From: Henricia sp. BOLD:AAB3569 | Taxonomy: Eukaryota; Echinodermata; Asteroidea; Spinulosida; Echinasteridae | Reading direction: 5' to 3' | Length of the DNA: 64,000 bases | NCBI GenBank assembly: GCA_037783545.1 | Contig: JBBELK010000372.1 | Coordinates: 124,001-188,000, forward strand | In this document: one piece after another, positions 16,828 through 63,064 of the stretch | Layout of the letters: every line of letters starts with the position of its first letter | How positions within the stretch are numbered: position 1 is the stretch's first letter | Notes under the pieces: generated by a model | Told to the model about the DNA's origin: nothing | Databases searched by the model: none | What the model saw: only the letters and a program-made list of their open reading frames with translations | Program-made: the position numbers and the translations under genes

Positions 16828-17300
16828 GACCCCGTTCTCACTAGAGAAATCGCTTCGTTCAAAGAAGATTAGTTAATCGTCGTTAGTTATAATGAAGAGT
16901 GCGTTCTGAAGAGCGACCGCTAACGAAGATTGAATGAAGCCGTGGGAGGTCGTTCATGTGCATCGCGCATCAAGCGCTGAGCTTCAAGCGTCTAGACGCG
17001 CTGTGTGGTTTTCCAGCGGCGCGTCAAAAACAACTCTTGCTAGGCGCTCGACACACAACGCGCTTGTGCATAAGGCCTGCCAAATCACTTCTAACGAAGG
17101 GAGCCTTTCACATTACAAATTTGCTTCGTCGAATAAAGAGATCTTTTCATCGAATTAATTAAGCTATTTCCTTCATCGAATGAAGCGATTCTAAATATCG
17201 TCGAATGAAGAAGCGTGCGTTCACATCAAGAAATCTCTTCGTCGAATCATCGTCGAATCATCGTCGAACGAAGCAATTTCTCTATAGTGAGAACGGGGTC
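16828..17300. mobile_element. Foldback element GACCCCGTTCTCACTA, TTA duplication
   Basis: Ends GACCCCGTTCTCACTA and reverse complement, with TTA on both sides (16,825-16,827 and 17,301-17,303). The interior is an array of TCGAACGAAG-like motifs in both orientations. It is inserted in a copy of the TTAA-type dispersed repeat; other copies of that repeat (near 9,590) are uninterrupted at this place. Confidence 0.82.
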
Positions 17301-17491
17301 TTAGTTTACAAAACTTCGGTGTTTTTTTAATGATATCCTTGAAAATATACGGAATGAGAGCGAAACATTTCAGAATTGTAATGAGAAAAATATTACAAAT
17401 GATATGGTATCAAAATCTCAACACCAATGGGAAAAACGCGGTGTCAAAATGTGACAGATCACATTTTTGTGCACCTCTCCACCCCCCGCGG

Positions 17492-17513
17492 CACCCCCCC
17501 CCCCCCCCCCCCC
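17492..17513. repeat. Poly-C run inside TTAA-family repeat
   Basis: Uninterrupted C run next to CCATTTTTCGTACGGGTGTTGAG. It occupies the internal site where other copies of the family carry only a few C or G. Confidence 0.8.
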
Positions 17514-17923
17514 ATTTTTCGTACGGGTGTTGAGATTTTTACATTATATCATGTGTCATATTTTTCTCATTACCATTCTGAAATTTCACGCTCTCAATCT
17601 ATATATTTTCAAGGATATCGTAAAAAAAATACCGATGTTTAATAAACTATAATTTATCAGAAACAAAGCACTGCACTGATTACACCAATCTTTTTGCTTT
17701 CCATCAAAATTAGAGATTGCAGATTTCCCATTTTCTTTCCATATATAATGTATTGAGGAGGTATTTTACATGGTTGTAAATTTATATTAAAATCCATTGT
17801 CTGGAAGAAAAACAAATACGAACAAGCTTCTTTAACAAACACAACATCATGTATATGGTGCCTGATCACCATTGAAATGAAACAACCAATCTTACGATTT
17901 TTCTCTCGTCCCAACTTCTTTAA

Positions 17924-18040
17924 GCGATTTTTGCCACGAATTAGGTACGATTAGCTACGATTTGGTACGATTGTGTGTAGAGTGTATACATAATCGTACC
18001 AAATCGTAGCTAATCGTACCTAATTCGTAGCAAAAATCGC
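17924..18040. mobile_element. 117-bp near-perfect palindrome
   Basis: Arms GCGATTTTTGCCACGAATTA...AATCGTACC pair over about 48 bp around a short AT-rich centre. Internally built from GGTACGATT / TAGCTACGATT. In an intron of gene B, absent from gene A. Confidence 0.8.
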
Positions 18041-18235
18041 ACAGTGGGAGGCCCGCTTTAAGTGAATGGTAAAAAATGTGTGTACACACACATGCTGTTT
18101 CTAAAAATTGCCTTCAGTTAAAGATAGTATACATGATTGGTAAACTGTTACAAATAGTTTTATCCCCCTGTGTGATTGAAAATATGCATGATTAAAACCA
18201 ACCAAAACAGTAAAATAAACAAAGGGTTCGCAGTC

Positions 18236-18405
18236 ATTTCACCCCGAAACTACCTCGCCCAAATGCCACTTTGCCCCAAAACCACTTCTTGCACAGGCCG
18301 TGGTTCAGGGCGAAGTGGTTCAGGGCGAAGTGGTTTCGGGGTGTTTGGACGAAGTGATATGGGCGAAATGGCACTTAGGCGAAGTGGTTTGGGGGCGAAA
18401 TGAAT
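18236..18405. repeat. CACTTCGCC-motif repeat in gene B intron
   Basis: GGCGAAGTGGTT and its complement repeat many times, left half in one orientation and right half in the other. The right part is shared with gene A at 37,828-37,890. Confidence 0.6.
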
Positions 18406-18659
18406 TGTTTTGCTCATTTCTCAAAGACTATAATAGCACTTCAGACAAAACCAAAGGGGAAGTTTTCTGCCGTCATCATGTTTATATCGTGTAAGTTATG
18501 TGTAAATCTGTAAACATTTCTGATTCTTCGAGATACCAATCATGTATATAGTTGGTAAAATCTTACAAAAAGTACCATCTTGGAAGAAAATAAACTCATG
18601 TCGGGTTTGTCATCATTGCTATCAACACTTTAAGTATATGTTTTTTTTGTCTTGTCTAC

Positions 18660-18996
18660 AACTTACTCTTTCGCGTTTAGGTCGACCGGTTATGGGTAAA
18701 AAAGGCGTATTAGGACGACCGACCGCATTAGGGCGACCGATAGCCGGTCGTCCTAACGCTAAGTGCTTCAAAAACCATCTTTATTAGGTCAAAAACCATT
18801 TTTATTAGGTTCTTAACCATTTTTATTAGGTCACAAACCATTTTCGTCTAGGTCGCAAAACATTTTTTTCCAGAGAATTAGGTCGAGAAAATGGGTGTCA
18901 ATTCATGAGTTTCTTTCCGACAATTTTGTGGTTTTAGTGGTCTCTGTAAGCATTCTACCCAAAAAGGTCGTCCTAATACGGGAAAAGTAGTTACTA
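18660..18996. mobile_element. Foldback element of GGTCGTCCTAA type, empty site in gene A
   Basis: Present in gene B and absent from gene A, where the flanks join at TAC (38,153-38,155). TAC is duplicated here at 18,657-18,659 and 18,997-18,999. Ends AACTTACTCTTTCGCG and an imperfect reverse complement, with GGTCGACC / GGTCGTCC just inside. The middle has tandem TTTTTATTAGGT units. Confidence 0.8.
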
Positions 18997-19387
18997 TACT
19001 CATGAAGTACATTTGTTGGTCATTGTAAACGATATTATGGGCCTTTAGGTAGAATACAAGCGATCGTATGGACCGGAGAGCAGTCTATGCAAAGCATTGT
19101 CTGTCAAAGTAAGATATCCGGCGCGTTGCTTCAATTCTCATAGTTACAAAGCCATCAGTTGTGCACTGTAGGAACAAATTATGCGTGATCTTTTTTTGGT
19201 AACAACTAATTCATAAGATGCAAGTAGTTGTTGTATGCTACGAAAGCTCATGCATAATTTGTTATGTATGTAAGTGCGTAAACGCCTAACAGACCTCACC
19301 GTTGTAGGTGTTTGCTGCCACCAAGAGTTGCAAAAGAGTTAGTTTTTCTTCCGTTCGCCGCACGGTGACGGTATTGTATAGCTGTAA

Positions 19388-19633
19388 TGCGCTGCCGCAC
19401 CCCCTAGGTGGGGGTTTGGTCAAATTTTTCATGCCCCAGGGTGGGGCATTTGGCCCATTTGTTTTGCATTTTTGTGCATTTTGCGCATGTTTTGCACCCG
19501 AGGGTGGGGATTTTTGTCACCTAAATGTTGCCCCAGGGGTGGGGATTTTGTCACGCAAAAAGTGACAATCCCCACCTCTTAGGTGGGGTAGCCCGGGGGA
19601 AGGGAGGGGTGGGGGAAACAATTGATATGTGCA
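19388..19633. mobile_element. Harbinger-like MITE in gene B, TAA duplication
   Basis: Right end closes CAATTGATATGTGCA; the left end is degraded (TGCGCTGCCGC). TAA is duplicated at 19,385-19,387 and 19,634-19,636, and gene A has a single TAA at 39,443-39,445 with otherwise continuous sequence. Same family as 38,303-38,626. TWA duplication fits PIF/Harbinger. Confidence 0.85.
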
Positions 19634-19843
19634 TAACTTCATGTGGTGTTTTACTTTGCGTATCCTTAGTCCCATATACATCAGTTACAGCTCATTAACG
19701 TGGACATTTTGTTTTTGAATCATTAAAAATTGTATAAATGGTTAACTGTTGCCACGCAACAGTTAACTAGTAATTTTTAAACTTATGACGACCAAAGTTA
19801 TGACTCGGAAATGAACAAATCCAAAATGGGTAAATGAACTTAC

Positions 19844-19954
19844 TGATGTCACAGGTGGTACCACCGTAGCCAGGGGAACATGTGCATGTAAACATTTCCC
19901 ATTCGTCTGTGCACTGTCCATGCTGACACGGGCTGCTATCGCATTCATTGGGCT
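19844..19954 (-). CDS. Gene B EGF exon 1
   Basis: 111 nt, phase 1 both sides, TAG acceptor and GTAAGT donor. EPNECDSSPCQHGQC, then EWEMFTCTCSPGYGGTTCDI: a six-cysteine EGF module. Nearly identical to gene A 39,763-39,653. Confidence 0.92.
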
Positions 19955-20339
19955 CTATGGCGAAGGATTGGAAAGCAAATTAACAAAATAACAAAATGAT
20001 TCTAAAAACCGTTTGATAAGTTAAAATCGCAAACTTTCGGCAATCTTAAAGATGCTTGACCAGATCACTTTTTGACACCCACTTACCTTATTGGTGATGG
20101 AATTTTTACATCATTTTTTCTCATTACTATGCCGAAATGTTGCGCTCTCGATACGTATACTTTCAAGGATATCGTTCAATCGACGTTTCCAGTCATTTGC
20201 GGTTCAGTAGTAATTCGAAATATTAACAGTAATTGTGTAGGTCGATTTTTTTTTTGATGTCTCATTTGAAAGCGGAAAACCTTTTATGTTTCTCGAAAAA
20301 ATATCAATATAGGTGCGTTACACAACACACTAGACCATT

Positions 20340-20460
20340 GGCATTACATCCCTTCCATTATTGATAGAGCAATTGTGGTTAAATGCCTCGCTCAAGGGCA
20401 CAGGTACCATGACCGGGTATCAAACCCACAACACCAAGTTATTACGCACCAAACAATAAA
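20340..20460 (-). repeat. SINE-tail remnant in gene B intron
   Basis: Minus strand shows a weak box-B-like GGGTTTGATACCCGG followed by CCCTTGAGCGAGGCA. The same segment is in gene A at 40,730-40,870, so it predates the gene duplication. Confidence 0.5.
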
Positions 20461-20515
20461 TTACTCGGCCATGGAGTGTAGTAATGCGTTACCCGTTAAT
20501 TCCTTATGTACTCAC

Positions 20516-20570
20516 CATGTGTTGTCGGCAATGGCGTCGTGGTGGGGAGCTCAACTGTTATTGCGGTTCT
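20516..20570 (-). CDS. Gene B exon 2: Thr/Pro linker
   Basis: 55 nt between a TCTCTCAG acceptor and a GTGAGT donor. Codes for RTAITVELPTTTPLPTTH, likely an O-glycosylated spacer. It enters in phase 0 and leaves in phase 1, which sets the phase for the EGF exons. Conserved in length and sequence with gene A 40,974-40,920. Confidence 0.85.
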
Positions 20571-20619
20571 CTGAGAGAGAGAGAAAAGTATAACAGTCGT
20601 AAGTTTGTCTTGTACCATC

Positions 20620-20960
20620 TTGGGCAGAAATAAATCCATGTGGTGTTTGTTACCATTGCTATCAACTCTTTGACTAATTTTGTTTTGTCAAACTCTTGAA
20701 GTAAAATATTTGGTCATTGCAAACGATACAATGGGCCTTAAACACCTCCAGAAAGGCATTGGAAAGAAGACAGTAACATAATTGTAAAATTTATTTCTTA
20801 CATAACGTACCATGGACAGCAATCAATTCATGTAGTGTTTGTTACCATTGCTATCAACTGTTTGACTAAGATTGTTTTCTTGTCGATAAAATTTCGTGTC
20901 ATTGCAAATGATGCAACGGGTCTTAAACGCCCACAAAAGGCATTGAAAAGAAGATGTTGT
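20620..20960. repeat. Diverged tandem repeat in gene B intron 1
   Basis: Two direct units of about 180 bp, each with GTTACCATTGCTATCAACT and later GGCCTTAAAC-like sequence. Gene A has only one unit (about 41,030-41,180). Confidence 0.6.
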
Positions 20961-20996
20961 AAAAGTCAGAAAAGAGACAATTGCCAGATTACTTAC

Positions 20997-21335
20997 ATCC
21001 CACACTTCGTTAACATCGGGACCACAAGACAGGTAATCTTCATCCTCGACCGTTCCTTGCGCCGAGCCCGTCTCTAAGAGACACTCTCTCGTCTTGGGAG
21101 AGTAGTTCACAAACCGGCAGTCCTCGTGGGCGAAGCAGGACTTGAGACATTTCGATTTGGACTGTACCTGGTGGAGCACCTCCAGCCTGGTTCCACCCGT
21201 CAGTCGGGTCCCTTTCGTGCACTTGACATTGAACCCGCGGTACCCCCACGATGATTCTAGTCCTTGGACAACAAACTGAGGCGTGGAAATTATGATACAA
21301 AGTGATTTCAACAGAAATACTGCGACGTTGGCCAT
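20997..21335 (-). CDS. Gene B exon 1: signal peptide and PAN domain
   Basis: ATG at 21,335 opens MANVAVFLLKSLCIIISTP, a clear signal peptide, then LESSWGYRGFNVKC and SKCLKSCFAHEDCRFVNYSP, the cysteine spacing of PAN/apple domains. GTAAGT donor after codon 113. This ATG was chosen because homology to gene A and the signal peptide both begin here. Confidence 0.92.
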
Positions 21336-21510
21336 GGCTGGGACTCAATCGTTCTGTATCCCGACGCCGGCGGGTGAAATATTTAAGTACAGCGCCGAAA
21401 TCGTGAAGCGAATGCACAAATGGCGTCCAATAGAGTAAAGTGAATAGACCAGTTGCGTGATAGATTTGCATAAATCCGAGAGGGCACGCCTTATATTTGT
21501 ATAACTGCTG
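21336..21510 (-). promoter_or_regulatory. Probable gene B promoter region
   Basis: On the minus strand a TATAAGG lies near 21,492 and an ATGCAAAT octamer at 21,464-21,471. An ATTGG (reverse CCAAT) near 21,428 is shared with gene A. Sequence upstream of the ATG is conserved between A and B to about 21,445 / 41,660 and then diverges. Confidence 0.35.
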
Positions 21511-21560
21511 GAGTCCAGCCTTCGCGCTATATGGCGCTCGCGTACGAGTGAGTCAAGCAC

Positions 21561-22900
21561 CATGCTACCGGGTCTATTCGTTACTTTCTGTGAGTTGCCA
21601 AGGTTACTAGATTTTCGTCAAACTAGACCACCGTTTCCGCGTGCTTTTGCAACGTGCGTTCAAACCTATAGTGCAGTAGACTGTACATTCTTTTTAAGAA
21701 TGTACAGTTAAGTCTACTTTCTTAGTACACTTTACTGAATAGAGTGAGTAGTTTAAAGCCTTTTGCATGTGTAATTAGTACCAGGTTGCAGATAAACACG
21801 TTTCTGCAATATTTTTTATTAGAGTCACAAAATCGACCACACAACAAAACCCGGACACTGTAACAATTTTATTCGTGTTTGTGGAACTCTTTGTGCTGCT
21901 GTATAATATAGGCCTATCTTTTAAATGATCTTTTAAACGACTCGATTCGGCGCCAAAAACCCTTACTCATTACAGCCTGTATAGTGTTTGCCGTACTTTA
22001 GAGTAATAAATGTAATTGGTAATTTAAATTGATGTAGGCTGTAGTGCAAAAATGCATCCGCATAGCGGAGGAAAACAAATAGTTCATGTAAATTGGAAAC
22101 ACAACCATGTCGTATATGTACTTGTTGCCAAGGAAACGTTTCAAAAACTGTTGCATCAACGATTGGGGCGGTCGAGTTGGTCTGTAGTGTCTTTTCGTGC
22201 TTATATGGAAAACGTTTCAGACTACCACAGATTTGAAAACAAAATACCAATTTACAATTGCATAAATCTTGGTAAGAACTGGACTCTGATAGACAAGGTC
22301 CGTTGTGTCCATTTGTGTCCGTTGTGTTCATTTGTGTCCGTTTGAACTATTGTGTCCGAAGAAATTTGTTGGATGGAGTAGACATAATGGTTTTTCGTAT
22401 ACATGTGTAATGAACAGATGTTGCAACGAAACATGCAATTTTAATTAAACATGCACCACTTGGTCAGTCCCAAAGCATAGTAATTTGATTCAATGTACTA
22501 CTACTGTACAAGTCGAACATTACATAAGCCCTCCTGCACTAAATCTATGAAAGAATTCCAAGTTTTTTCCAAGTAAAATCTATATAATTTTTTTCCCCTC
22601 AATTTTAGGGGTTTTGATATTAGATTTGCAATTATTCATGCTTAATAAGTAATTTTAAGGAAAAATAGTTATGTCCAAGTACTAATTTGTCTTACGCAAC
22701 GCGTACACTAGTGCGGGGATCGCGAACTCCAACAATAAATTCGGCCTTAAATCAAGACTATGCTTTGGGGCTGACCAAGTAGTGTTTTATCAAAATTGCC
22801 TGCCAGTTTGGTGGATCGCATGCATGATCCGTTGCAACAGCTAGCCAAATACCTGAAACAAAGTTTGCTAATTTTTATGAGCTATACAAGTAGAATATCC
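21561..22900. other. Intergenic upstream of gene B
   Basis: No gene supported. It contains a hairpin at 21,676-21,716 (arms GTAGACTGTACATTCTT) and a short-period repeat of TTGTGTCCG at about 22,300-22,360. Confidence 0.5.
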
Positions 22901-23083
22901 ACGTGCTTGTCTATTGGTTATAGGCCTGTATACGTGTAGATGTTTTGTTCATACAGAAAAGAGTCCAGATGAAAGTCATAATGATTCTTCCTTTGAGTAT
23001 GATTCTAAATCACAGGACCAGCGGAACTGTTTTAAAAGCGTTTCCAGAGTGGTTGTCGATCAGTGCCTTTGTGTCCTGTATTC

Positions 23084-23195
23084 GGGCGGGCTGGGGCTGG
23101 GGCTGGGGCTGGGGCTGAGCTGGCTGGCTGGTTCTGGGCTGGGCTGAGCTGGCTGGCTGGTTGGCTTCAGGCTGGGCTGGGCTGGATTGGGCGGC
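23084..23195. repeat. GGGCTG minisatellite
   Basis: Runs of GGGCTG with GAGCTGGCTGGCTGG interruptions, directly beside a GGCCATGAC-family element. Confidence 0.85.
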
Positions 23196-23197
23196 CA

Positions 23198-23450
23198 TGA
23201 CAGGAGCAGTCACACTGTCACCATGTGTCATGCACAAGTATACACTTTGTGGATTGACACATAAATTTAAAAACCTCCCCCTGTCATGGCCGCTGGTGCA
23301 AAGGGTCTATAAAGTATGGTCCACATATATATATCAACAAATCTTATCTAATCGTGGGAGATTCATAGTAAAATTCGTACTGCGGGAGGTCAACTTAAAG
23401 AATAGTCCGTGCGTTTTGGGTGTGGCACCTCGAGAAAAAAAAATTAATTG
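23198..23450. mobile_element. GGCCATGAC family copy, uninterrupted
   Basis: Contains AAGTATACACTTTGTGG, the empty-site version of the locus filled at 10,715-11,159, followed by CCCTGTCATGGCCGCTGG. Confidence 0.65.
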
Positions 23451-24840
23451 AATTCAAAAATTGAATTGGTATTTCATGAAGTCATGAAGACGGTTATTCG
23501 ACCACACACGATTGCTATACGAATATGAAGCTCTGTTTTATTTATTCTTGTTAATTTTGCACCTTACATTAATTTAAAATTACCTTGTTAATTGTAACGG
23601 GGGCTGCTAGGTCTTTTATAAGCCCGATTGGCTTTTTATCTAGCATCCCATACATCTTCCATTTAACAAAATGCCCTTATTGTGTTGTGTTATGTTTTCA
23701 ACAAAGTTAATTTTCATATAGATATTCATGACGTGTTTATATAACGCAGCTTGTAATGATTGTATAAAATCAAACCAGGGAATATGTATGAAATTTGTTT
23801 GAGAACAAGCGATGTGGAGGAAATTTTGAGTGAAACGATACCCTAAGTATCACCGAATTATGAAACGACATTCCGTCCAGCATGTCCAAGCTAATTATGT
23901 GGATTTCGGTGCGTTGTTTCACGCAAAATTCCTTCCACATAATTAGCTTGTGCGCGTTGTGCGCGTCATGTATGCGCGCTATTTTATTTAACAACAACGC
24001 ATAACGCATGCACAGTCCATGCACTGGGAAAAAGTTGCGTCCCAGCAATGGCGGACGTACGTGTACGTAGCCTTTTGACAAGGCCTCGTGAATTTTGGCG
24101 ATTTGGTGCCTTGAGTAGAGTCTACACACGCCGAGTATCTCATTCACTTGGCCTTTTTCGAACTGCGAGGAATTCTTATGTTTTACTTTATAATCGCTAC
24201 CAACGTTGGTAGCAGAAATCGGCCAGTCACGTGCGGGTCATCCTATGCAAATTACGTCGTGAGCTCCTACAAACAAAGGGAGGTAGGCTTACGCAAATAA
24301 ATCAAATGGAAATCATATTCGTTCCGTATAAAACTTGGATGTAATGAACAATTTGTCAAATTTAAACGTACTTAAATTGAGCTCAATGGGGTATTTTCGA
24401 AGTAAATGTAAGTACCGTACCTACATTGATAATGAACGAGTCCACAACGCCGCAGGCGATGTGATTGGTCGGATTGTCCTGTGGGAACTGTACGAAACTT
24501 GCACCACATGTCACGCGCGCGTGCAAAACAGGTTCCTAGCGCTCATTGGCTCAGTTGACAGTTTGTTTTCGATCTGTTTTCAAAATGTTTACATGTAGAG
24601 TGGGGCGCGGGTAATGATGTTGTGACGTTGCACGTTCGGGTCAACTACTTGCATGTAATGAATAATGTAGTACTAGTAACCAGCTCGAAAAGGGCTTTAT
24701 GGCAAGGCAGAAGGCGTAACGTTCGCCCAGCCTTTATATACTCCGCTCAAGACGCCTGATTATCCCACATTTTACCAAACAATATAACCCCAAAGCCATA
24801 AAGCCTTGCCAAAAGGCTAACGTGTATAAGGGGAAGGAGT
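23451..24840. other. Intergenic, no gene recognised
   Basis: AT-rich at first, then moderate GC. Short ORFs have no recognisable domain. The sequence GCTTTATGGC recurs inverted as GCCATAAAGC at about 24,692 and 24,796. Confidence 0.4.
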
Positions 24841-24849
24841 CCTGGGAAT

Positions 24850-25205
24850 GGTCTATAGTCATCGCGTGTGGTCGAATAGCCGTCGTATTGGGGGTACCCA
24901 CGGTCACCTATACGACTGCTATACGATCAACGGGATGGCTATACGATCGGGTGGCTTTACGATTCCGACGATGGCTACCCGATCGCTATACGATGACTAT
25001 TCAACCATGTGCGACTGATATTTTGGTCGTGTTCGAACACGATATTTTAGCATGTTCAAAAAATCGTGAACGATGAAAATCACGCACGATGGCTATTCGA
25101 TCAACGCGAGTGAAGTATGATGGCTATTCGACCATGCGCGATCAATTAGAAGTCCACTATACACTACCACACTTTTTCGCTTGATCGCGTGTGGTCGTAT
25201 TCCAA
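24850..25205. mobile_element. GGCTATACGATC-motif foldback
   Basis: GGCTATACGATC and variants (GGCTATTCGACC, GACTATTCAACC) occur at least eight times in both orientations. CGCGTGTGGTCG lies at both ends (about 24,863 and 25,185). No ORF. Confidence 0.55.
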
Positions 25206-25235
25206 TTTACTTCTGTGGGAAAGGGGCTTTAGTTA

Positions 25236-26012
25236 TACCCCGTCACACCGGAGGCGCGGTGCCACTGCGGTGCTTGTACGGCATAAACCGCAGTGGGATC
25301 GCCGTGGTTCCGCAGTGGTTCCGCCATTGATCGCCGTAGCACCGCGGAAAACTGTCAAAACCGCGGACCTTCGCGGTGGCACGGCGGAAACTTTGAACAT
25401 GTTCAAAACTTCCGCAGTGCTACGCGGGTTGGGCCAATCCGCAGTAGGATCGCCGCGGCACCGCCATGACCGCCGTGGGACTTTACAAGGACCGCAGTAG
25501 CACCTCCATCACCGCCGTGCCTCCGCAGTACAACCGCCGTGCAATCGCCGAAAAAGTAGACTGGCGACCCTACGGCGATCCCGTGGCGGTTCTACTGCGG
25601 TTATGGCGGTGCTACCACGGTAGCACTGCGGGTATGGGGGTGCCACTGCGGAGCCAGGAAGGAATTTTAGAAAACTTGGCGAACTTATTGCGGTGCCACT
25701 GCGTTCCTACGGCGGTGCCGGCGGTGTTATTGAGGCGCTTGTACGGCAATGGCGTTTCCACTGAGGTTGCACTGAGGTGCTTGCACGGTGCTACTGCGGG
25801 CATATTTTGTAGTATAAAAGCTTCGGTTTTCTGCTTCAATTTCAGTGTTCTAAAAGTCTTCAAACGGTTCAGATCGACAGTAGCACCGCGAAGAAAAACA
25901 CACGTGTGACGGGTAGGGGAAAACTATGAAAAACTACTGTCGGTGTCACTACGTTGATGGCGGTTTTGACCAAAAACCGTAGTGGCACCGCCAATCCGGT
26001 CTGACGGGGGTA
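25236..26012. mobile_element. Foldback element TACCCCGTCACACCGG, TTA duplication
   Basis: Ends TACCCCGTCACACCGG and its near reverse complement, TTA at 25,233-25,235 and 26,013-26,015. GC-rich interior is an array of CCGCAGTGG / CCACTGCGG variants. The long ORFs in it are by-products of this array and not genes. Confidence 0.85.
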
Positions 26013-26077
26013 TTATCAAACAATTACTATCAATATTTCGAATTATTGGCGGTCCACCAACTTACGGCAAGGCATAG

Positions 26078-26967: not shown

Positions 26968-26973
26968 CAACAA

Positions 26974-36543: not shown

Positions 36544-36847
36544 AGGGGCGTTCACACTATCGCGGAAAATTCACACTTTCGCGCTGCGCTCACCGCATTG
36601 CATGAGTTCCTAATCGCCGATTATTCCAAAATAGAAAATTCCACTCTGGTAACTTGGGGCTTCTCTGATACATCATTGGCTGCGCGTTGGAAAGGTAAGC
36701 GCACCGCGGTCAAAGTTCAACAAATTTGAACTTTGACCCAGCTGAAAACGTTTTGCGCGTCGCGATAGGCCGCGCACAAGCGGCAAACCAGTTTGTGTAC
36801 AAACCAATGGAACAGTGTGATTTTTCCGCGATAGTGTGAACGCGCCT
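36544..36847. mobile_element. Foldback element AGGGGCGTTCACACTATC, TTA duplication
   Basis: Ends AGGGGCGTTCACACTATCGC and its near reverse complement closing GAACGCGCCT, with TTA at 36,541-36,543 and 36,848-36,850. In an intron of gene A. Confidence 0.85.
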
Positions 36848-38302: not shown

Positions 38303-38325
38303 TGCACCTATCAATTGTTTCCCCC

Positions 38326-38365
<40 letters not shown>

Positions 38366-38626
38366 CGCTACCCAACTCCCTAGGTGGGGGTTTGGTCACA
38401 TTTTTCATGCCCCAGGGTGGGGCATTTGGCCCATTATCTGTGCCTTTTTGTGCATTTTTGCGCATGTTTTGCACCCGAGGGTGGGGATTTTTGTCACCTA
38501 AATGTTGCCCCAGGGGTGGGGATTTTGTCACGCAAAAAGTGACAATCCCCACCTTTAGGTGGGGTTGCCCGGGGGGGGGGGGGGGGGGGGGGGGGGGAGG
38601 GGTGGGGGAAACAATTGATAGGCGCA
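38303..38626. mobile_element. Harbinger-like MITE in gene A, TTA duplication
   Basis: Ends TGCACCTATCAATTG / CAATTGATAGGCGCA; TTA at 38,300-38,302 and 38,627-38,629; gene B has one TTA at 19,144-19,146 with continuous flanks. Inner arms are a 38-nt C run (38,327-38,364) and a 27-nt G run (38,571-38,597). The middle repeats GGTGGGGATTT / GTCACC motifs. Confidence 0.9.
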
Positions 38627-50614: not shown

Positions 50615-51348
50615 AGGAGCGTGACCAGATCACATCATTTTTTCCATAATTCCCCGGGACTTACCTCATGGGTCCCGAGATTTTTAGATCATAACATTCG
50701 TCATATATTTCTTATTACGAATCTGAAACTCCCACGCTTCTAGGCCGCATATTTCCGAGGATGTCGTCAAAAAACCACCGATTTGTTGTAAACTAATTTA
50801 TCGAGATTGGACTATGTGGACAGCAGGCTTGTTGGACACAGGCTTTTTGTCCCTAGTATCCCGGCTTCATTTACGTGAATCAATACACAGCGCGCGCTAT
50901 CGCGCCCAGACTAAGTGGCATATTTTGTGATTATTGGTGGCGCTATACAGTTTTTCGGCTCCGCGATCTCGTCGGGTTCTTATAGAAGCTCAGCGCACGG
51001 TTACAGAATCAGCACCAGTCTTTTTCATGTCCGGCAGATGTCAGTTAACAAATGGGTCATTACAAGTCTTTTTTTTTCGAAGTAGGCCTACTGATCATGT
51101 GCATTTATAAGATATTTCGAACTGAGGTTCCAATGTGAGTAGAAATTATGTTATAGCTATTAGCACTATGAAATATAGTCGGAAAAGCAAACTTCAGTCC
51201 GATTTCGAATTCTGGTATTGGAAGTGAAACAGCGCGATTTCGGGTTGTGTCACTATTTTCTTGTCATGAATAGTATTTTTGGGAGGTATTTTATATCATT
51301 GTTAAGTTAGATCTAAACAAAATTTCCAGAAAATCTGGACACGCTCCT
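50615..51348. mobile_element. TTAA-flanked MITE, AGGAGCGTGACCAGAT type
   Basis: Ends AGGAGCGTGACCAGAT / ATCTGGACACGCTCCT, TTAA at 50,611-50,614 and 51,349-51,352. The interior matches a widespread repeat (around 2,160, 9,430, 15,060, 17,330-17,700, 20,060, 39,870, 54,520-54,785, 59,350-59,475). TTAA target is piggyBac-like. Confidence 0.8.
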
Positions 51349-51384
51349 TTAATTTCAAATCTCTTCTGGACCCGGGACTAAAGG

Positions 51385-52075: not shown

Positions 52076-52079
52076 TTAT

Positions 52080-53510: not shown

Positions 53511-53514
53511 TCTA

Positions 53515-54289
53515 CACTGCAAAAAATGGGGTGTTAAATTCTACACCACTGGTGTTAAATTTGATTCTTCGTTGGTATCCATTTTGGGCAAGGATTTGGG
53601 TGTTAATATTTTTTAACACCAAGAAGAGTGTTAAACTTTAACACTCCCATCCGGTGTCAACGTTTTCTTTTTGGTGTTTATTTTGGGCAAGAATTTTAGT
53701 GTTAATTGACACCTGAATGTGGAATTAAATTGTAACACCTACAGTTGATTTATTCTTACAGAATTAGAAGCCGACAACAATTGATGTAAAATGGGAGAAC
53801 CACTTTAAAATAAAACACGCAGTGCAAAACGTCTGGTGTTAAATTTAACACCAGCATCTGTTCGTGGTGGAACAGTAATGTTATTGGCAAATAACCATTA
53901 TTTTCATTATGTTTTTTCATGATTTCTTTTATCCCCTCAGGATTAATGATGATATCATATGAAAAAAATTCAGATAGTCTAGCCATAAGTACAACGTAGC
54001 CAATCAACTAGCTGGATTTCCGCGCATGCTCTCTCAGCATTATTTTTTAACACCAAAACACTTTGTTGGCAGTGAACACGTTACCGACATCCCATAATTT
54101 TCTCGGATTAGAATACTAAGCGTCATGCATTGTGATCATTAGAAGTTTATCAAGTTTAACACCATGCAAATTCTACACCAATTTTTCTGCTGTTAATCTA
54201 TTACACCGGTGTTCGTTTGACACAAATGTAACACCCAAAGAATTTAAAAACCTTGGTGTTAGAAATTTAACACCGCATTTTTTGCAGTG
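53515..54289. mobile_element. CACTGCAAAAAATG foldback
   Basis: Ends CACTGCAAAAAATG and complement, TA on both sides; the interior is an array of GGTGTTAAATT / AATTTAACACC. Common MITE type in invertebrates by end sequence. Confidence 0.85.
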
Positions 54290-55900
54290 TACAGTAAAAC
54301 TAGTAAACTTGAACTAATTTATGCGTCGCAGGCATGTTCACCAGAGAATTCACCAGCGGGAAGTTTAATATGAACAACTATTGGGATATACGGGCTGTCA
54401 AAGGTTTATAAATGCCCCCTTTTCTCAAAGATTTCGCGGTGGATTTTTCCTGCTGATATTTCATTTCAAAGCTTATAGTTTCGGCAATATGAGAAAATAA
54501 TTTGTCCACGTTAAAGCAAAGGAGCGTGCCAAGATCACATTTTGAGCCCCTATTTTTCCCGTGGGTGTTGAGATTTTGATACCATATCACTTGTCATATT
54601 TTGAAATTTGAAATCCGTACATTGTCAAGGATATCGTCAAAGTGATTAATACACCAACCATTTTGCTTCCACATCCAAATTGGAGATTGCAAATTTCCTG
54701 TTTTCTTCCCATATAGTATTTTGGGGAGGTATTTTATATGATTGTTAGATTACGAAATCCATTTTCTGGAAAAAATCTGAACAGGTTCAAATATATTTTA
54801 TGTACATTTCCAAAGTTTGTAGTATACGATTAGATTATGTATATACGTCAATCCAGACTCAAATGCACCGCGCGAGGCAGGGGCAACACGGCCAAAGTGT
54901 GCCGGGGCGGCGCGCAGCGCGGTCCGTGTAGCCATCTTCTGAAGAAGGCGGTGCGCTTTGATCAGACAACGCAATTACGCGGACTGCCACGCAATTAAGG
55001 CTGATTACCGCCGGCTTCTGCCCCGCAATTACGGGCACCCGGAATTACTTTGACATATACACGGTCCCACACGTACGTATATCTTATGTATTAGTCGGTG
55101 CTTTGTTTTTTCCCCGACAACCCATAATGGGTGCTCCGGTTTTTTTCGCGTCAGGTGTCGCGTTAAATTACTCACGAACGCTATGTTTTTATGTCTAAAT
55201 GGGGAAAAACAAAAGCAAACAAAAGGGTGATTTATTTTGGTTAAGAAACGACAAAGACACGCTAAAGACTTCTCAAAGTATGGCGGCAGACGATAATCAA
55301 ATATCGTAAAAGGCGGGAATTATGTGATCGAATTGCTGCGAGCGCTGATTGGACTGTACACCCCCAAGTTGCTTGGGATTTAGGTCAAAACAATGCTAAA
55401 CTTGACGTTATAAGGAAGGGACTTTCAAAGTTACATTTTAAAAGGGTTTTATTTCCAACAACAGTAACATTTCAGACTGACTTGACTTTCTTGAGTCTCC
55501 CATGCACCATTAATGACTCGACTTGGACTCGAGTCACTGACAGAAATGACTTGACTCGGACTTTGACTCGAGTCTGCATGCGAAAAGGTACATTTTACAT
55601 TTAAAAAAAAAAGGAATGCAGTATCTGATTTTTGCAATTTGGGGGACAAAATGTATTAATACCTGCTATTAAGGCCACCTTGATAAAGATGCCACCTGCC
55701 TATAGCGGCCACCCGTCTTTGGTACGAAATATGTGTAAATGCTAATGCAACCTTTGTGGCCACCTGTTTAAATGGCCACTTTTTACGGTCTATACGAGGA
55801 TCGCCACTATATTGATACATTCCTTCCTCCATGATTGATATTACCACTATTACCATTGCCCTTGTAAATCTCCTTCCAAAATAGTCGAATGTTTAATATA
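54290..55900. other. Intergenic with MITE piece
   Basis: 54,520-54,785 is a copy of the TTAA-type family. 54,870-54,960 is GC-rich. Around 55,480-55,580 is a short GACTCGAGTC-type repeat. No gene recognised. Confidence 0.4.
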
Positions 55901-56080
55901 CAAATATTGACTGCTCATGAGGGTGATGGTGCAAACTATCGTCCCGAGGTTATTTTGAGACGGCAGGCCTGCTATTTTCCCGAGGCCGTAGGCCGAGGGA
56001 AAATAGCAGGCCTGCCGTCTCAAAATAACCGAGGGACGATAGTTTGCTCCATAACCCGAATAAAGAGCAGTCAATATTTG
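55901..56080. mobile_element. 180-bp palindrome
   Basis: Arms CAAATATTGACTGCTC and complement; the centre is two long exact arms GGCAGGCCTGCTATTTTCCC facing each other around GAGGCCGTAGGCCGAG. Confidence 0.8.
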
Positions 56081-56124
56081 TTTTATATACCTCATACATT
56101 GATTTTATGTGTCAAAATTATTGG

Positions 56125-56240
56125 TATTTTTGACCTATGACGCAGAGGTCAAACAATAGTACTTTTTCAGTTGCCCAAAATTGTACTATCCTTTGACCTA
56201 TGACGCAAAGGTCAAACAATAGTACTTTTTTTAGTTGCCG
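56125..56240. repeat. Two direct units with everted AGGTCA half-sites
   Basis: TTTGACCTATGACGCAGAGG and its near copy repeat at about 66-bp spacing, each with TGACCT and AGGTCA separated by 9 nt. They lie between inverted TATACCTCATACATTGA sequences at 56,086-56,103 and 56,303-56,322. Confidence 0.6.
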
Positions 56241-56339
56241 TCGGAAATGGTTAAACTATTCCATGTCAGGTGATCTGCTTTTAACCAATCAGTTAACGAG
56301 ACTCAATGTATGAGGTATATAAAATATTTTAGCGCACTT

Positions 56340-59300
56340 TCGTTTTGTTCTGATCCACTGTGCACTGCGGCAGATTTACAGGATTACCCGTGTCAAAGGT
56401 TAACGTGTAAAGATGTTGGTCTAAACGTTTTCCATCAACCACGGCATTAATTTGACATAATTACACGATCCACGCCAATCATCCCCTATACAACCCTTTT
56501 TATTCGACACTGCTGACCAATCGTGCGCAGCGTAACATAACAATACGACACTAACGCCAGCTGTGATTGGACAATGCGGACACACCTGACGGCACTAACT
56601 GTCAGCAGTGAAAGCGTCGTCCATTGAAAATAAGTGACAAGACTTGACAGTCTTTTTATAGACAGCTGTGGGAGAAGCGAACGGGAGGGGCAACTCAGCG
56701 TGAAACCCGCTAACTGTTGACTTTAGATGCAGCTTTAGATGTCTGCCGACTTGCAGACAGGATCAGGGAAATCGAAAGATCGATTTAAGGCTTTTGTCCT
56801 GGGCTGAAATGCTACCCTCCATAAGTTGTCAGTTCTCCTGTCAATCTGACGAGGATGTCCCTTGAGTTTGCCGCTTCAGATTAGCGCTTTAGAGGGGATT
56901 TGCGAGTTTTTAGAGTCATACAAAAGGGTGTAAAATGATGCCTTCAACGATGGCTTCAACCATGGAGGAAGGCTCTAATGTCTGCACATTTTTTTAACAA
57001 TAGACTGCGAGACTGAAAAACAGACATATAGGAGTGCATCCGTAGAAGCGTCGTTTTCTAGGAAATAGTGACCATACTTATCCTACATGTACATGATTTC
57101 CCCCTTTTTATTGGCCATGCATCTAAAACCATATACTAATAAAAGGAAAATTAAATAGGTCCGATGACCCTCGGGAAAATTATAGCAACAAGAAAAACAG
57201 GAACTATTTTAGTAAAAGGTTTTTGATATCAAATCCAGAGGAAAAAACCATAAGAAAAACATGTTTGCGATTTTTGCTTTTAAAAGGGCCAACTTTTGCA
57301 CGATTCTACACGCTAAAGTTGAAAGAACTCAACAAAAGCAAACGTCTCAGATAAGTCAAATTGTATCGGAAAATGAACACCGAGTCTCGTCGTTTTACGC
57401 TGCATGATATCATTACCCTTTCAAGCAAAGATGTTTGTTTGTTCCCGATCTGCGAATTTAAAAAGAACATTTCACTGCGGGGAAACAATGATCGTAGTCC
57501 AGTTTATACGAGAATACACGTGAAATTTATCCATGAAAATGCTTTTTTAGGTTTAGGGTTTCGGTCGCAACATGTAAACAAACTTGCTGAAAAAACTAAG
57601 ATACTTGGCGTTACGAACAGTATGAAGTTATGAACAACTAAACACAGTTTCACCAGACACTGGAGAATGCTTACGTCAAGACTGCAAAACATTGCCAGTT
57701 TGACAATACAAGTCTTTAAGAAAAGTTGATTTTGTGAAATTTTCTTCGTTAATTTCTGAAACAGTAGATTTAACTGAAATATCTTGTTTTGGTTTCCGAA
57801 CATATAGAACTTAGACGCCATGCCATCTACTATTCATTTAAAAGGGGTTTCCCTCTCTTTTGAAAATGGACTGTCACTCAAGACACGTATGCTAATTAAG
57901 CTATGAAATATATCTTTACAAAACTAACCAGAAAGCAGTAACACTGGTTAATCCCCGAAACACAGAGGCGAGCCGACTGCGACAAACAAGCTGTCAGCCC
58001 ACGTCTTGGGTCCCGATTAGGACCCTTTGCGTGTGCCGCTCTGGTCCGCGTGAACCACCGAGCTTTTGTCCGGCTCTGCATGGGTTCCTGTGGGCGGGAA
58101 CACAATAGATGCATCCGCGACCAATGAAAACGCTACTCCATGCCTCGGCCTCCGAAAAATGCATCCTCTGCGACATCAATATCAAAACATTTTAACCAAG
58201 CACTTGAAGAAAAAAAAAAAACAACAACAACAACAAATGCCGGTGCACACGCATTTATATAAATTCATGTTCAATTGTCGTTTTCTCAAACTAAAACTAA
58301 AATGCATATCTCAGTGGAATGTCCCAAATTTTTATCAATAATTTGACTGGAAGGCTTTAGTCAAAATGGAAGATAGAACTAGTTCCAACTGTCCAATACA
58401 ATGATTCCGCCTTGGATATATTTTTATAAGAAAACAATAATTGAATGTATGTACATGCGTGTGCACAATAATTTTTTTACAAGGGCGCCCTCATGTGTAA
58501 TTATAAATTTATGGAAAACAACCTTCCTATAGGCCTAGTTTGGCATTAAAATCGAAGTAGGAAGTTTTCTTTTATTGAATTTTTCTCGGTTGTCAATTCG
58601 ACTTTCAATTTGTCGTTTATCATTAAGACTGCAATCACAGGGAAAATATTAAATCAAGGAGGCTCGACTGCAGCGGTCGGCAAATTGAGCCAAACTTTTA
58701 ACCATCACTGCGTGTCATACGATTTCATAAATCGGCATCTTCTCAGTCACAACAACTCGGCTGCGTTAACACATAGGCTTTATATAGTACACACATACCA
58801 CCGCCAGCACCGTGCAATATTATTATCATCATTAATAATCGCGCGAAATAACTCGTCAAGCGACCAGGAAAAGAGCGCGGGAACCACAATCGCCCAGCCG
58901 AAATTAATTTCCGAAGTCGGTAAGGAAGGACCGTCGGTTAATCGCTAGCGGCGATTTACAGGAAATTCTCCGACCAATATAATCAACTGAAGACACATGT
59001 CTTACGGTTATATGGGTTTATGTCGCTATATACGCTCGTGTAGAAGAATGATAGCTAAAAAATAACCGGGGAAAGGCGCGGAAATTGATGTTTAATTTTA
59101 GAAAACATTCTAATTTGAATGTGCATTTTTTTTGCTTCTGGCTACGTAATGATGCTCAAGATGCGTGTTAACTGAGCTTATTCATATTTTTTCCAGGAAT
59201 TTTTTTTTCTAACTTAAAGATAGTGTACATGATTGGTAAACTGTTACAAATAGTTTTCTCCCGTGTGTGATTGAAGATATGCATGATTAAAACCAACCTC

Positions 59301-59380
59301 AGCAAAAACCAGCTCCGTACTTCGTTTGCAGTCATTTCGCCCCAAAACCATTCATAATATCAAATCTCAACACCCATGGA
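56340..59380. other. Intergenic, no gene recognised
   Basis: Short ORFs lack domains. A GC-richer patch at 57,945-58,150 has no coding signal. A CAA repeat is at about 58,222-58,237. Confidence 0.35.
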
Positions 59381-59385
59381 AAAAT

Positions 59386-59440
59386 GGGGGTGGGGGGGGG
59401 GGGGGGGGGTGGGGGGGGGGGGAGGGGGTGGGGCGGGGGT
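59386..59440. repeat. Poly-G tract in TTAA-family MITE
   Basis: G runs broken by single T, A or C. The right end of the MITE (ATCTGGACACGCTCCT, then TTAA) follows at about 59,458. Confidence 0.85.
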
Positions 59441-59989
59441 GATGTCTTAAAAATGTGATCTGGACACGCTCCTTTAAAAGAAAGGAATTCCAAAAAAAAA
59501 ATCTAACAAATGTGAGCACGTTTTAACCAAAAATTGAATTGATTAAATAAGCGAGTTTGGGGTTTCGTCTGGGTTTCTGCACAATGTAAACTGGAGTGAG
59601 AAATTGACCCTTCAGATCAGTAGAAAACAACCCGACCGAAAGCTATACGCCAACGCATGAAGACACCGATCACCGACACCAACGGTGAAAATAAATTTTC
59701 TTGGAACGTAAAAATAGGAAGGTTTAATAGATGCACGTAAAACGCAAACGTGAACGCGAAACGGCTTGAGCACTGCTCATATTTTTAAGAAGTCTTAGAA
59801 CCCAGGTTCTCAACTCATTAGCCTTTTAGAAGTATGGCAGAACAAAAGGAGAGGGCGCAATTTTATTTGGGTATGAATTTTTTAACAATAAATTTCATGT
59901 TGCAATTATAATACAGAGACAGAATTTAAATAAAATAAATAAGCGCAAAGTGAAAAATACAGTTATATTGCATTTTATTCGATTTTATA

Positions 59990-60290
59990 CCCACTTCAAA
60001 GTGCGCCATGCTTCAAATGTCTTAATTTTATCTTTAATTTATCAAGCTAAACTGAGGAAATAACTTTTTCACCAAGGAGTAAGAAAAATAGTCCTACAAC
60101 ATACATTTCTGAAAACCCCGTGCACAAATTTCCCTATTACGCGTGTAACAAAGACGGAAAAAAATGTCACAAAATGGTCTGTCCACGTTACCTACGTGTC
60201 CTGCTATTCTGTCATGCTTTTTATTGGGCAATTTATCACCGATAATGTTTTATGTCACACTGACACAAAATAGCACTGTAAAGACATTTG
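59990..60290. mobile_element. Relative of the nested TATA foldback
   Basis: Matches, inverted, the right half of 10,715-11,159, for example TAGTCCTACAACATACATTT and AATGTCACAAAATGG. Confidence 0.65.
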
Positions 60291-60409
60291 ACTAGGGTCG
60301 GTAGTTTGGTATACAGCGCAGAACAAGTACCTTTACTGCAGTGGGATATGGCTTTGTTTCTGAAATGAATATGACCATGGAGCTCCATGATATAACGGTT
60401 GTCGGACGC

Positions 60410-60525
60410 TTTGCCCCATTTCCACTTCGCCCCATTTCCACTTCGCCCCATGTCAGTTCGCCCCATACCACATCGCCCCATTACCACTTCGCCCCATTGC
60501 CACTTCGCCCCAATACCACTTCGTG
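60410..60525. repeat. CACTTCGCCCC tandem array
   Basis: About eight units of ATTTCCACTTCGCCCC with small changes. Related in motif to 1,650-1,800 but arranged in one direction. Confidence 0.75.
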
Positions 60526-61899
60526 GATGGTCGTTGACACACCCCAGTTTGGGACGGGAATTTGGTCTGTAAAGCGATATAAGTAGCTGAGCTGGATTGA
60601 GGTGTTTTTTTATAGATACATGTAAGTCACAAATCGGACTCAACATTATGGGCAACCTAAATGTCTTCATACAAAATTAGTCTATCTTTACAGTACAAAA
60701 TCATATGGTTTTTCATTAATTTTACGATTCTTTCTCCACTTTCACTAAGTTTCAGAAGAAGCTTAGAATATCACGTGACATCTGACGCCATACCAATTGT
60801 TTGGTTTGGTTGCGCATCATACACGTCAATAAAAAACGACAAATAGGGCGAGCATTCACACCCCGTTTTATAGACCATTGTGTGCCAGTAATGACCCTGC
60901 CATGGTAACGACGCACAATAGGGGTGTTAGGAGCGGCACACGCAAAGGGTGCGTCCGGATCCGAGGGCTAATCTTGGGGTGCTGTTTGTCACGGCGGTGC
61001 CCCTCTGTGGTCCGGGGATGGTTTCCTCTAATCCCTCGATTGACGTGTCTCATTTTGACAAGCAGGTTATAAAGAATAATTGGTTGACGCCGTGTACAAA
61101 ATAGTTTCCCTTCATTAGTTGGGCCTTAGGTTCTTTATCAAATGCTCTCAAAATTAAACTTTTACAAGATTTGCAACGTCCCAAAATTTTAATCCTTCAT
61201 TTGACCAGAAAAACCTTACTTAAATTGAAGAAAACTGCCTAATGCAATGGTTCCACCCGAGAAGATGTATATTTTATAAAATCACGAACATTAAAAATTA
61301 ATTTATATGTGCACACACATATTTTCACAAGGGCGCCTCCATAAGGCCATGTGAAAGAAACGAAGCCCCTTATGCACGGTCCAGTTGTCCGGGTATCAAC
61401 CTATATATACACAATTTTGGAGATAACGTCGTCTGTATGTAGTTTTCCGGTCCTGTAATCTTTAAAGCCCCATATAATTTGCAGTTACCCAAAATTTTAC
61501 TTCACGAGTTGATAGCAATGGTATAACAAACACCACATGATTTTCCCGTGTAAAATGGTACCTTTGTTGGAGAAATTGAAAATGAGGTGCTTTTTAAGAA
61601 AGAATTGTCTGCCGACAATTTTTTCAACACAAAAACCATGCATGGATTTTTAGGTTTTCTTAAGTATTACTGCATGTTTACATGGACAACAGCATTACAT
61701 AACAAGAGAATATTGTTGATAACTGCCTTTTAGAAATGTCAACCACATTGATGCAGTAATACATGTACTTCAGAAAACCTGAAAGGCGGAACCACCGCAA
61801 AGGTTGAAACTATTCATAAACTGTGAACTTGTAAAGTATAAACTTGACTCAAACTATTATTAAAAGATCATCTATGCAATTTGCAATATGCAACATTTA

Positions 61900-63064
61900 A
61901 GCCCCCGTCACACTTATTCGGAATTAGCAGGAATCAAGCAGAACCAGCCGGAATGACAAATTTTCAAAATTCGTGCCACGTTCGGGCGGGAATTTCAAAC
62001 TGACCAACATTCTTACAGCTTTGTAAGAATGCCGTTCGAATACTTATAATGCGCTTCGAACCGTGCTGAGAAATGTGCTTATAATGTAACACGAATGTCC
62101 CGAGTGTACCAAGAATCCCACCGGAATCAATGGTCCCCGATGGGGTATAAAACGCTGCCGAATCTAGCATTTTCATCAGTCTCAGCCCAGACCATGTTGC
62201 TTTGCGGCAGCTAGCTGCGTTTTCATGCGATTCGGTGGTTTTCTGAATTACGTCAAAATTCGTGCCACGTTCGGGCGGGAATTTCAAACTGACCAACATT
62301 CTTACAGCTTTGTAAGAATGCCGTTCGAATACTTATAATGCGCTTCGAACCGTGCTGAGAAATGTGCTTATAATGTAACACGAATGTCCCGAGTGTACCA
62401 AGAATCCCACCGGAATCAATGGTCCCCGATGGGGTATAAAACGCTGCCGAATCTAGCATTTTCATCAGTCTCAGCCCAGACCATGTTGCTTTGCGGCAGC
62501 TAGCTGCGTTTTCATGCGATTCGGTGGTTTTCTGAATTACGTCCGGACTCATTCAAGGGCCAATCGGGACGTTCCGACTGCATTCGAGATGTAATCGAGC
62601 GGCAATAGAAATATTCAGAAGGCATTCGAAGTGCATTTCAGCTGAACTATTTTAGTATCAAAATAGATTCCGGCAGCAATCGAGGTGCATTCCGGCTCAT
62701 TCGAGGCACATTCGGGACATTCTGGCAGGATTGCCATGGCTTGCCATTTCGATTTTTCCCTCGAACGCGATCAGAATGTTTCGAATTATGTTGGAATGCC
62801 GTAAGAATAGTTAGAATGCAGTCAAAATGCAGTTAGAATACACTTCGAATGCCGTTCGATATTTCTCCTCTTCGAATGCACCTCGAATGTTTTGAGCATG
62901 AGCAAAACATTCGGGCCGGCCACAAGAATGGGCCCAAATGTTTGGAATGCACTCAGAATGCAGTCAGAATTTTTAGAATGCACTTCGAATATCCCGGAAT
63001 ACACGAGGAAGTTTTATCCCGACGGCATTCCGGCTCAATCCGCCTCTATAGTGTGACTGGGGTA
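61900..63064. mobile_element. Foldback element AGCCCCCGTCACACTTAT, TTA duplication
   Basis: Left AGCCCCCGTCACACTTAT, right complement of TACCCCAGTCACACTATA. TTA at 61,897-61,899 and 63,065-63,067. The interior is an array of GGAATGC / TTCGAATGC motifs and carries an exact 289-bp tandem duplication. Confidence 0.8.
61965..62542 (+). repeat. Exact 289-bp tandem duplication with TATA/initiator motifs
   Basis: 61,965-62,253 and 62,254-62,542 appear identical by eye. Each has GGGTATAAAACGCTG and, about 32 nt downstream, ATCAGTCTC, an initiator-like sequence at the canonical distance. A short ATG frame after it stops quickly. Promoter activity is inferred. Confidence 0.8.

Follow-up and report, generated by a model that had tools for sequence, protein, structure and literature searches.

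Four elements (F1 to F4) lie in the window, by which we mean the whole 64,000-nucleotide stretch of DNA that was analyzed. We think it likely that F2 to F4 are non-autonomous Harbinger (Tourist-like) MITEs and F1 probably a relative, that the short core in their ends is superfamily-wide, and that an overhang from the donor site is sometimes retained upon insertion.

Four Repeat Families in the Window

The first-pass annotation had described four foldback elements, each between TTA trinucleotides, and all four are present in the window at the positions it gave, with TTA on both sides (Table 1). Genome-wide searches, in which the 40 best candidates were scored per element, gave sharp and recurrent ends, so F1 to F4 are all repeat families. 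Copies extend mostly over positions 1–473 of F1 and 3–777 of F2, over 1–304 of F3 in the leading rows, and end at 1163 of F4 in most rows. The true end of F2 is the family end in Table 1, from which one C is missing in the window copy; the window copy of F4 measures 1165 bp, versus 869–885 bp in 27 other fetched copies, owing to a direct repeat of 291 bp in its interior. TTA followed by 24 bases of the F3 left end, a pattern of 27 letters, occurs 264 times in the genome, and its reversed control 0 times. The interiors are indeed unrelated, the best cross-family match (E = 0.036) being located at the ends. "Foldback" is too strong a label, as the inverted repeats are confined to the termini (F1, ∼43 bp with 1 mismatch; F2, ∼18 bp; F3, ∼34 bp with 2 mismatches; F4, ∼15 bp with 3 mismatches).

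Table 1. Elements, End Cores, and Internal Repeat in the Window
Feature	Positions	Strand	Description
F1 element	16828..17300	.	473 bp; ends GACCCCGTTCTCACTA; flanks TTA 16825-16827 and TTA 17301-17303
F2 element	25236..26012	.	777 bp (consensus 787); family end TACCCCCGTCACACCGG; flanks TTA/TTA
F3 element	36544..36847	.	304 bp; ends AGGGGCGTTCACACTATCGCGG and AGGCGCGTTCACACTATCGCGG; flanks TTA/TTA
F4 element	61900..63064	.	1165 bp; ends AGCCCCCGTCACACTT and TACCCCAGTCACACTA; flanks TTA/TTA
Direct repeat in window copy of F4	61964..62543	.	291 bp, exact; period 289
F1 core TCTCAC	16836..16841	+	left end, positions 9-14
F2 core TCACAC	25243..25248	+	positions 8-13 in window copy (one C lost); 9-14 in family
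F3 core TCACAC	36552..36557	+	left end, positions 9-14
F4 core TCACAC	61908..61913	+	left end, positions 9-14

Target Sites and Superfamily Assignment

A TWA target and the PIF/Harbinger superfamily had been proposed for all four elements, and both proposals are supported for F2 to F4. T-N-A is found on both sides of 21 of 26 distinct sites in F2, 23 of 26 in F3, and 25 of 27 in F4, with a middle base that is mostly A or T, and DDE_Tnp_4 elements with the same core are present in the genome; the assignment of F2 to F4 as PIF/Harbinger-type MITEs is well supported. For F1, the superfamily is plausible, but the TWA target does not hold, with T-N-A on both sides at just 3 of 26 distinct sites. 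Its 3-bp sites are instead WWW (A/T-rich) within GWC-WWW-GWC; the 3-bp duplication is backed by empty paralogs, and the TTA flanks of the window copy are incidental. An extended 9-bp palindromic target is thus seen in F1, and in F3 as G-N-C before TWA; the pattern is weak in F2 and F4. The first terminal base, usually A or G in PIF/Harbinger elements (PMC4482050), is G in F1, A in F3, A and T in F4, and T in F2. The TNA or WWW sites are 3 bp in length and do not correspond to the TTAA target of piggyBac.

We regard F1 as probably a PIF/Harbinger relative with a relaxed A/T-rich target. That it belongs to another PHIS group, or to another superfamily with Harbinger-like ends, is possible but somewhat unlikely: WWW within GWC-WWW-GWC fits none of the groups described in PMC4482050 (TWA, ANT, CWG, C-TNA-G, ISL2EU with 2-bp AT, and Spy without duplication), yet F1 carries TCTCAC at the same positions 9–14, with GTT at 7–9, and combines a 3-bp duplication with a 9-bp palindromic target, as do PIF and mPing (PMC2836001). 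F1 also fits the fixed-position terminal motif G(N)5GTT reported for diverse Medicago PIF/Harbinger families (PMC2213677), which F3 fits save for the first base; neither F2 and F4 nor any of the remaining ends that were read have GTT at 7–9. F3 further resembles the PHIS element NuwaII, whose TNA is preceded by C and followed by G (PMC4482050), in having C at −4 in 62%, but differs in having A or T as the middle base in 90%.

A Core Shared by Diverged Transposase Families

The core common to F1 to F4 had been written as G(T)TC(A/T)CAC at about position 8; its presence in all four stands, while TCNCAC at positions 9–14 fits better. By word counts in the window the core is not exceptional (other words reach 7), so the evidence for it rests on genome-wide copies. 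A chance scan of the window for TNA-flanked inverted pairs with ends matching at least 11/16 gave 858 pairs, 4 of which have the core at both ends; F1, F3, and F4 are three of those, and F2, having lost a C, was not picked up by the scan.

Many diverged Harbinger transposase families are present in the genome. Family A, whose ends (TGGCACAGTCACACGG/TGCTACAGTCACACGG) were found by inverted pairing with the core not used, is a 2.1-kb element (L143:1386-3489) with a 423-aa stop-to-stop frame containing DDE_Tnp_4 (E 6.2e-31), and its protein is matched over 410 or more of the 423 residues, at 99–100%, in 26 places. In six further transposase families, the left-end zones hold T-N-A and the core. 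TCNCA at positions 9–13 is common to the left ends of 7/7 transposase-bearing families whose left-end zones were fetched after the survey of diverged families; in six of the seven (all but family A) the left end was picked because it holds the core. Both ends are known for family A only: about 600 bp on the right-hand side of each of families B, E, and S yielded no matching end. The 30 best-scoring DDE_Tnp_4 loci gave no ends in a core scan of all 30 and a pair search of 18; these may be elements longer than the 3.5-kb loci, or immobile genes. A second ORF with a Myb/SANT domain is not expected in MITEs. Family A (L143) has no second frame over 150 aa, and its contig has no Myb_DNA-bind_5 among the matches listed (this Myb model only). 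At least 8 other loci have Myb_DNA-bind_5 and DDE_Tnp_4 within 3 kb of each other in convergent orientation (lists compared by eye).

The first-pass annotation had taken the core as a sign of one shared transposase. All seven transposase families read carry the core, which therefore does not single out one enzyme. F1 to F4 do share an identically placed core, and cross-mobilization is documented in the superfamily, with Pong proteins mobilizing mPing (PMC2836001), but it is unlikely that one Harbinger transposase recognizes the short core alone and mobilizes F1 to F4: besides the distribution of the core, the F1 target differs from that of F2 to F4, and the ends are unlike outside the core. 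F2, F4, A, and B are each enriched in short subterminal words of their own, the observed count being reached in 0/100 shuffles; the enrichment is weaker in F1 (1/100) and F3 (3/100) and is not seen in the short stretches available for families D, E, H, and T. In family S, the top subterminal word is a C run. Among the seven families read, no transposase-bearing element shares ends with F1 to F4 beyond the core. The core has the appearance of a superfamily signature, probably a general catalytic or binding one, with family identity probably residing in the remainder of the end and the subterminal repeats. It offers a simple handle for finding Harbinger families with unrelated interiors in one genome.

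The rice mPing/Ping/Pong group and Tourist-like MITEs share with the elements here the 3-bp TWA duplication, the 9-bp extended target, and the terminal core (AAGGCCAGTCACAATGGGG in an mPing primer, PMC2836001, and TGGCCCAGTCACAATG in family S here), although the mPing core TCACA lies two positions nearer the end. The elements here differ from that group in the WWW target of F1, in the family A contig without a listed Myb_DNA-bind_5 match, and in the discordance of about a fifth of the T-N-A sites of F2 to F4.

Target Duplications That Do Not Match

The middle base differs between left and right in 15 of the 69 T-N-A sites of F2 to F4. By family, 6/21 distinct sites are discordant in F2, 4/23 in F3, and 5/25 in F4, against divergences from consensus of 1.3%, 0.46%, and 1.0% (p = 1.4e-5, 5.5e-5, and 1.2e-4, respectively). 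A coordinate sample of F3 copies with TTA on the left had TTA on the right in 16 and TAA in 7 (p = 1.2e-9 for 7/23). A↔T accounts for 9/15 flank changes versus 6–11% of substitutions within the elements. An empty paralog is available for 8 of 39 distinct discordant sites. In all eight the target is contiguous, and in seven the base of the paralog is kept on one side only. In the strongest cases, F2_L096 has flanks TAC and TAA where the target is TAC in 4/4 fetched paralogs, and F1_L074 has TTT and ATA where one paralog has TTT. The flanks of F2_L098 (TAC, TTA) both differ from the TAA of its two paralogs, and the paralog of L094 matches on the right over just a short stretch. We note that the concordant copies F2_L013, F3_L118, F4_L125, and F4_L026 also differ from their own paralogs, which makes a paralog an imperfect guide to the target. 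Our full-text literature search returned no report that we recognized of mismatched Harbinger duplications in natural copies; such duplications would be invisible in the Medicago search, in which TSD mismatch was disallowed (PMC2213677).

Origin of the Mismatches

Mutation after insertion is a very unlikely source of the mismatches. Two of the eight empty-site cases could be plain single transitions (L126, A>G; L117, T>C), but the discordance rate far exceeds family divergence, and most of the changes are A↔T, with those in F2 to F4 falling mostly at the middle base; L074 would require two A↔T changes, and in L096 a C that is the target base would have to become the canonical A. Recombination between two insertions at T-W-A sites would also produce middle-base mismatches, and F3 does form close pairs, some 3 bp apart (C43, C161; further pairs C230, C74). 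In 8/8 empty paralogs of discordant copies, however, the two flanks meet without a break at the junction, and we consider recombinants or collapsed pairs very unlikely.

The reading we prefer is carry-over of the donor flank. F2 to F4 would be mobilized in trans by Harbinger-type DDE transposases, and the element would be excised with a 3-nt overhang from the donor flank, which would pair with a 3-nt gap at the target; if the repair step sometimes retained the overhang, one flank would be the target and the other the old address. We give an even chance to the specific proposal that natural integration proceeds without a resynthesized duplication, with the donor overhang retained on one flank in roughly half of donor/target mismatches. 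The excised piggyBac element, which bears a short flank-derived overhang, TTAA (PMC7351741), serves as a model for the TNA bases here, although it is of a different superfamily, with a 4-bp TTAA and a hairpin intermediate. For mPing with a TCA/TCA donor, 45/46 insertions were at TTA or TAA (PMC4561436), which argues against frequent carry-over in that element. At engineered Cas9 targets, mPing is joined to the nuclease cut, for the most part through end joining (PMC11254759), whereas the insertions here are natural.

Under this even-chance proposal, the flanking trinucleotides of a copy would record its present and previous addresses, and a mismatch rate of about 25% for TWA, and a higher one for WWW, would follow from the target alphabet. 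If a duplication can include one donor-derived copy, the mismatch is a genome-readable trace of Harbinger excision and integration chemistry, the textbook account in which both copies of a duplication come from the target would be only partly valid for the superfamily, and searches that require identical duplications would miss about a fifth of such copies.

Two further patterns were seen in the flanks. Discordant copies of F2 and F4 are mostly TAA..TTA and those of F3 TTA..TAA, where the F3 coordinate sample covered left TTA only. A TGA flank occurs in 5 F4 copies at T-N-A sites, on the left in 5/5 and on both sides in 2.

Inverted-Repeat Families and Their Target Sites

The four elements F1-F4 and their TTA flanks lie exactly where the first-pass annotation placed them, and each represents a repeat family in the 740.7-Mb genome, in which the window occupies C372:124001-188000. 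We scored 40 genome candidates per family, and 28 copies per family, window copy counted, were fetched from the best-scored and read at both flanks. The terminal sequences are constant in these copies; the F2 family end is TACCCCCGTCACACCGG, from which the window copy has lost one C. F4 measures 869-885 bp in its 27 other fetched copies, and the window copy has an additional 291-bp direct repeat.

Locations of elements, with family counts for F1-F4 (candidates, first-look genome candidates; divergence, from family consensus; sites, distinct sites after removal of those seen twice; discordant, T-N-A sites whose middle base differs left versus right; p, excess over twice the divergence)
Feature	Location	Candidates	Divergence	Sites	T-N-A both sides	Discordant	p
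F1	window 16828-17300	2635	5.1%	26	3/26		
F2	window 25236-26012	265	1.3%	26	21/26	6/21	1.4e-5
F3	window 36544-36847	1778	0.46%	26	23/26	4/23	5.5e-5
F4	window 61900-63064	171	1.0%	27	25/27	5/25	1.2e-4
324-bp inverted pair	window 38303-38626						
734-bp inverted pair	window 50615-51348						
240-bp units	window 285-524, 4862-5101						
F3 pairs, 3-bp spacing	C43:2814428-2815039, C161:360136-360750						
Family A element	L143:1386-3489						
Array around family A	L143:1-1380, 3490-6001						

F1 prefers a different target, GWC-WWW-GWC. Nearly every one of its three site positions is A/T, with C at -4 in 79%, A/T at -5 in 97%, and G at -6 in 57% of the 28 copies, and empty paralogs (related sites without the element) of the window copy back a 3-bp duplication. 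F1 is probably a relaxed-target relative of uncertain group.

Other inverted pairs occur in the window. The TTA-flanked 324-bp pair has long C and G homopolymer runs directly inside its ends (TGCACCTATCAATTGTTTCCCCC...), which are not Harbinger ends of the core type. The 734-bp pair, which starts AGGAGCGTG between TAA and TTA, is possibly a further Harbinger-like element with discordant flanks, and the two 240-bp inverted-repeat units share their ends (TAA, AAACAGATTGGTTGAATTCAACC..., TTA). Elsewhere, the two closely spaced F3 pairs look as if an insertion had hit an older copy's duplication, and the left flank of another F3 copy (L104, flanks TTA/TAA) matches the terminus of transposase family S (L146), 100% identical over 100 bp with TTA in common.

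Transposase Families Sharing the Core

The DDE_Tnp_4 domain (PF13359) gave 606 first-look candidates, of which 150 were scored. Family A has many near-identical members; in one copy (L143), a search for T-N-A-flanked inverted pairs that did not use the core (TCNCA at positions 9-13) delimited an element with ends TGGCACAGTCACACGG and TGCTACAGTCACACGG. It encodes a 423-aa frame with DDE_Tnp_4 and no second stop-to-stop frame >150 aa, and its flanks, TTA and TCA, are discordant too. A protein search returned many other transposases at 46-59% identity. In the left-end zones of six of these families (B, D, E, H, S, and T), T-N-A is followed by the core in 6/6 (chance by hand estimate 0.1-0.2 per zone, ∼1e-5 for all six); T and H hold a weaker second candidate end within the same zone. 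Across 14 ends compared, T9, C10, C12, and A13 are invariant, partly by construction in these six families, whose ends were chosen by the core, and C6 occurs in 13/14. On the other side, for families B, E, and S a matching end was absent from the right-hand zone read, and a search around the 30 best-scoring DDE_Tnp_4 loci revealed no ends. The F1-F4 ends beyond the core were not found in any of the seven transposase families whose left ends were read.

The family S end (TGGCCCAGTCACAATG) is nearly that of rice mPing (primer AAGGCCAGTCACAATGGGG), whose core lies two positions closer to the end (PMC2836001, excerpt). Work on PIF elements in Medicago made use of G(N)5GTT, a motif at a fixed position (PMC2213677, excerpt); F1 fits it. 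The core therefore looks like a superfamily signature rather than the mark of one enzyme, and the suggestion that a single transposase moves F1-F4 is not supported. The four elements are of a known kind, well spotted at first pass. Two-ORF Harbingers are present in the genome, with Myb_DNA-bind_5 <3 kb from DDE_Tnp_4 and convergent at at least eight loci (C1308, C715, C761, C930, C366, C377, C129, and C422; listed matches compared by eye); no Myb_DNA-bind_5 is among the matches listed for the L143 contig, C1095. The family A transposon sits within a tandem array with long open frames and a period of ∼297 bp, as judged from hit spacing, and one F4 copy (L125) lies in a related repeat.

Mismatched Target Duplications

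The part worth following is the mismatched duplications. Pooled over F2-F4, 15/69 T-N-A sites are discordant, and 9 of the 15 changes are A<->T, versus 6-11% of substitutions inside the elements. For F1, 16/26 sites are discordant versus 28% expected (p = 3e-4), with A<->T in 15 of 25 base changes. A second F3 sample took exact ends with a left TTA (first 100 of 264 places, by coordinates) and right ends from two lists covering 100 of 105 and 100 of 112 places. The right flank is TTA in 16 and TAA in 7 (7/23, p = 1.2e-9 against twice the divergence); there are 5 further symmetric-ended copies of the TTA..TAA type, and the remaining left ends have no exact partner among the right ends listed. 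The two samples overlap, with a few copies in common.

Empty paralogs were sought by local comparison of all fetched copies and by two genome searches (eight and nine discordant copies, six in both). They were seen for 8 of the 39 distinct discordant sites; for the others, none appeared among the fetched copies and the ∼40 matches listed per search. In 8/8, the paralog runs straight from left-flank into right-flank sequence at the junction.

Discordant copies (family and fetched locus) and their empty paralogs
Copy	Target in paralogs	Flanks	Remark
F4_L126	TAA, 6/6 fetched (of at least 10 places)	TGA, TAA	
F4_L139	TAA, 6/6 fetched (of at least 30 places)	TAA, TTA	paralogs without 4 bp upstream
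F2_L094	TAA	TAA, TTA	right-side match short
F3_L117	TTA	TTA, TCA	
F1_L005	AAA, five distinct paralogs (73-80% identity)	AAA, ATA	
F1_L074	TTT, one paralog	TTT, ATA	
F2_L096	TAC, 4/4 fetched	TAC, TAA	
F2_L098	TAA, 2/2	TAC, TTA	neither side fits

The most telling is F2_L096 because its target is noncanonical yet one flank is the canonical TAA. Among concordant copies, F3_L103 and F4_L030 equal their paralogs and F2_L013, F3_L118, F4_L125, and F4_L026 do not; paralogs are therefore imperfect stand-ins for the target.

In plants, excised mPing carries donor flanking TTA/TAA bases to a Cas9-cut target (PMC11254759, excerpt). We infer that normal insertion may also use such an overhang, which is the role suggested for TTAA in piggyBac (PMC7351741, excerpt). 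Donor and target trinucleotides would form a heteroduplex with the outer T and A paired; were A and T equally likely, half of events would carry a mismatch, and random resolution of each side would leave ∼1/4 discordant, against 15/69 and 7/23 observed. The overhang model also expects greater discordance for F1, with three free A/T positions, as is seen. The main contrary datum is that mPing from a TCA/TCA donor gave 45/46 insertions at TTA or TAA (PMC4561436, excerpt). We note that the discordant A/T cases run TAA..TTA in 6/7 for F2 and F4 and TTA..TAA in 2/2 for F3, a strand-independent difference.
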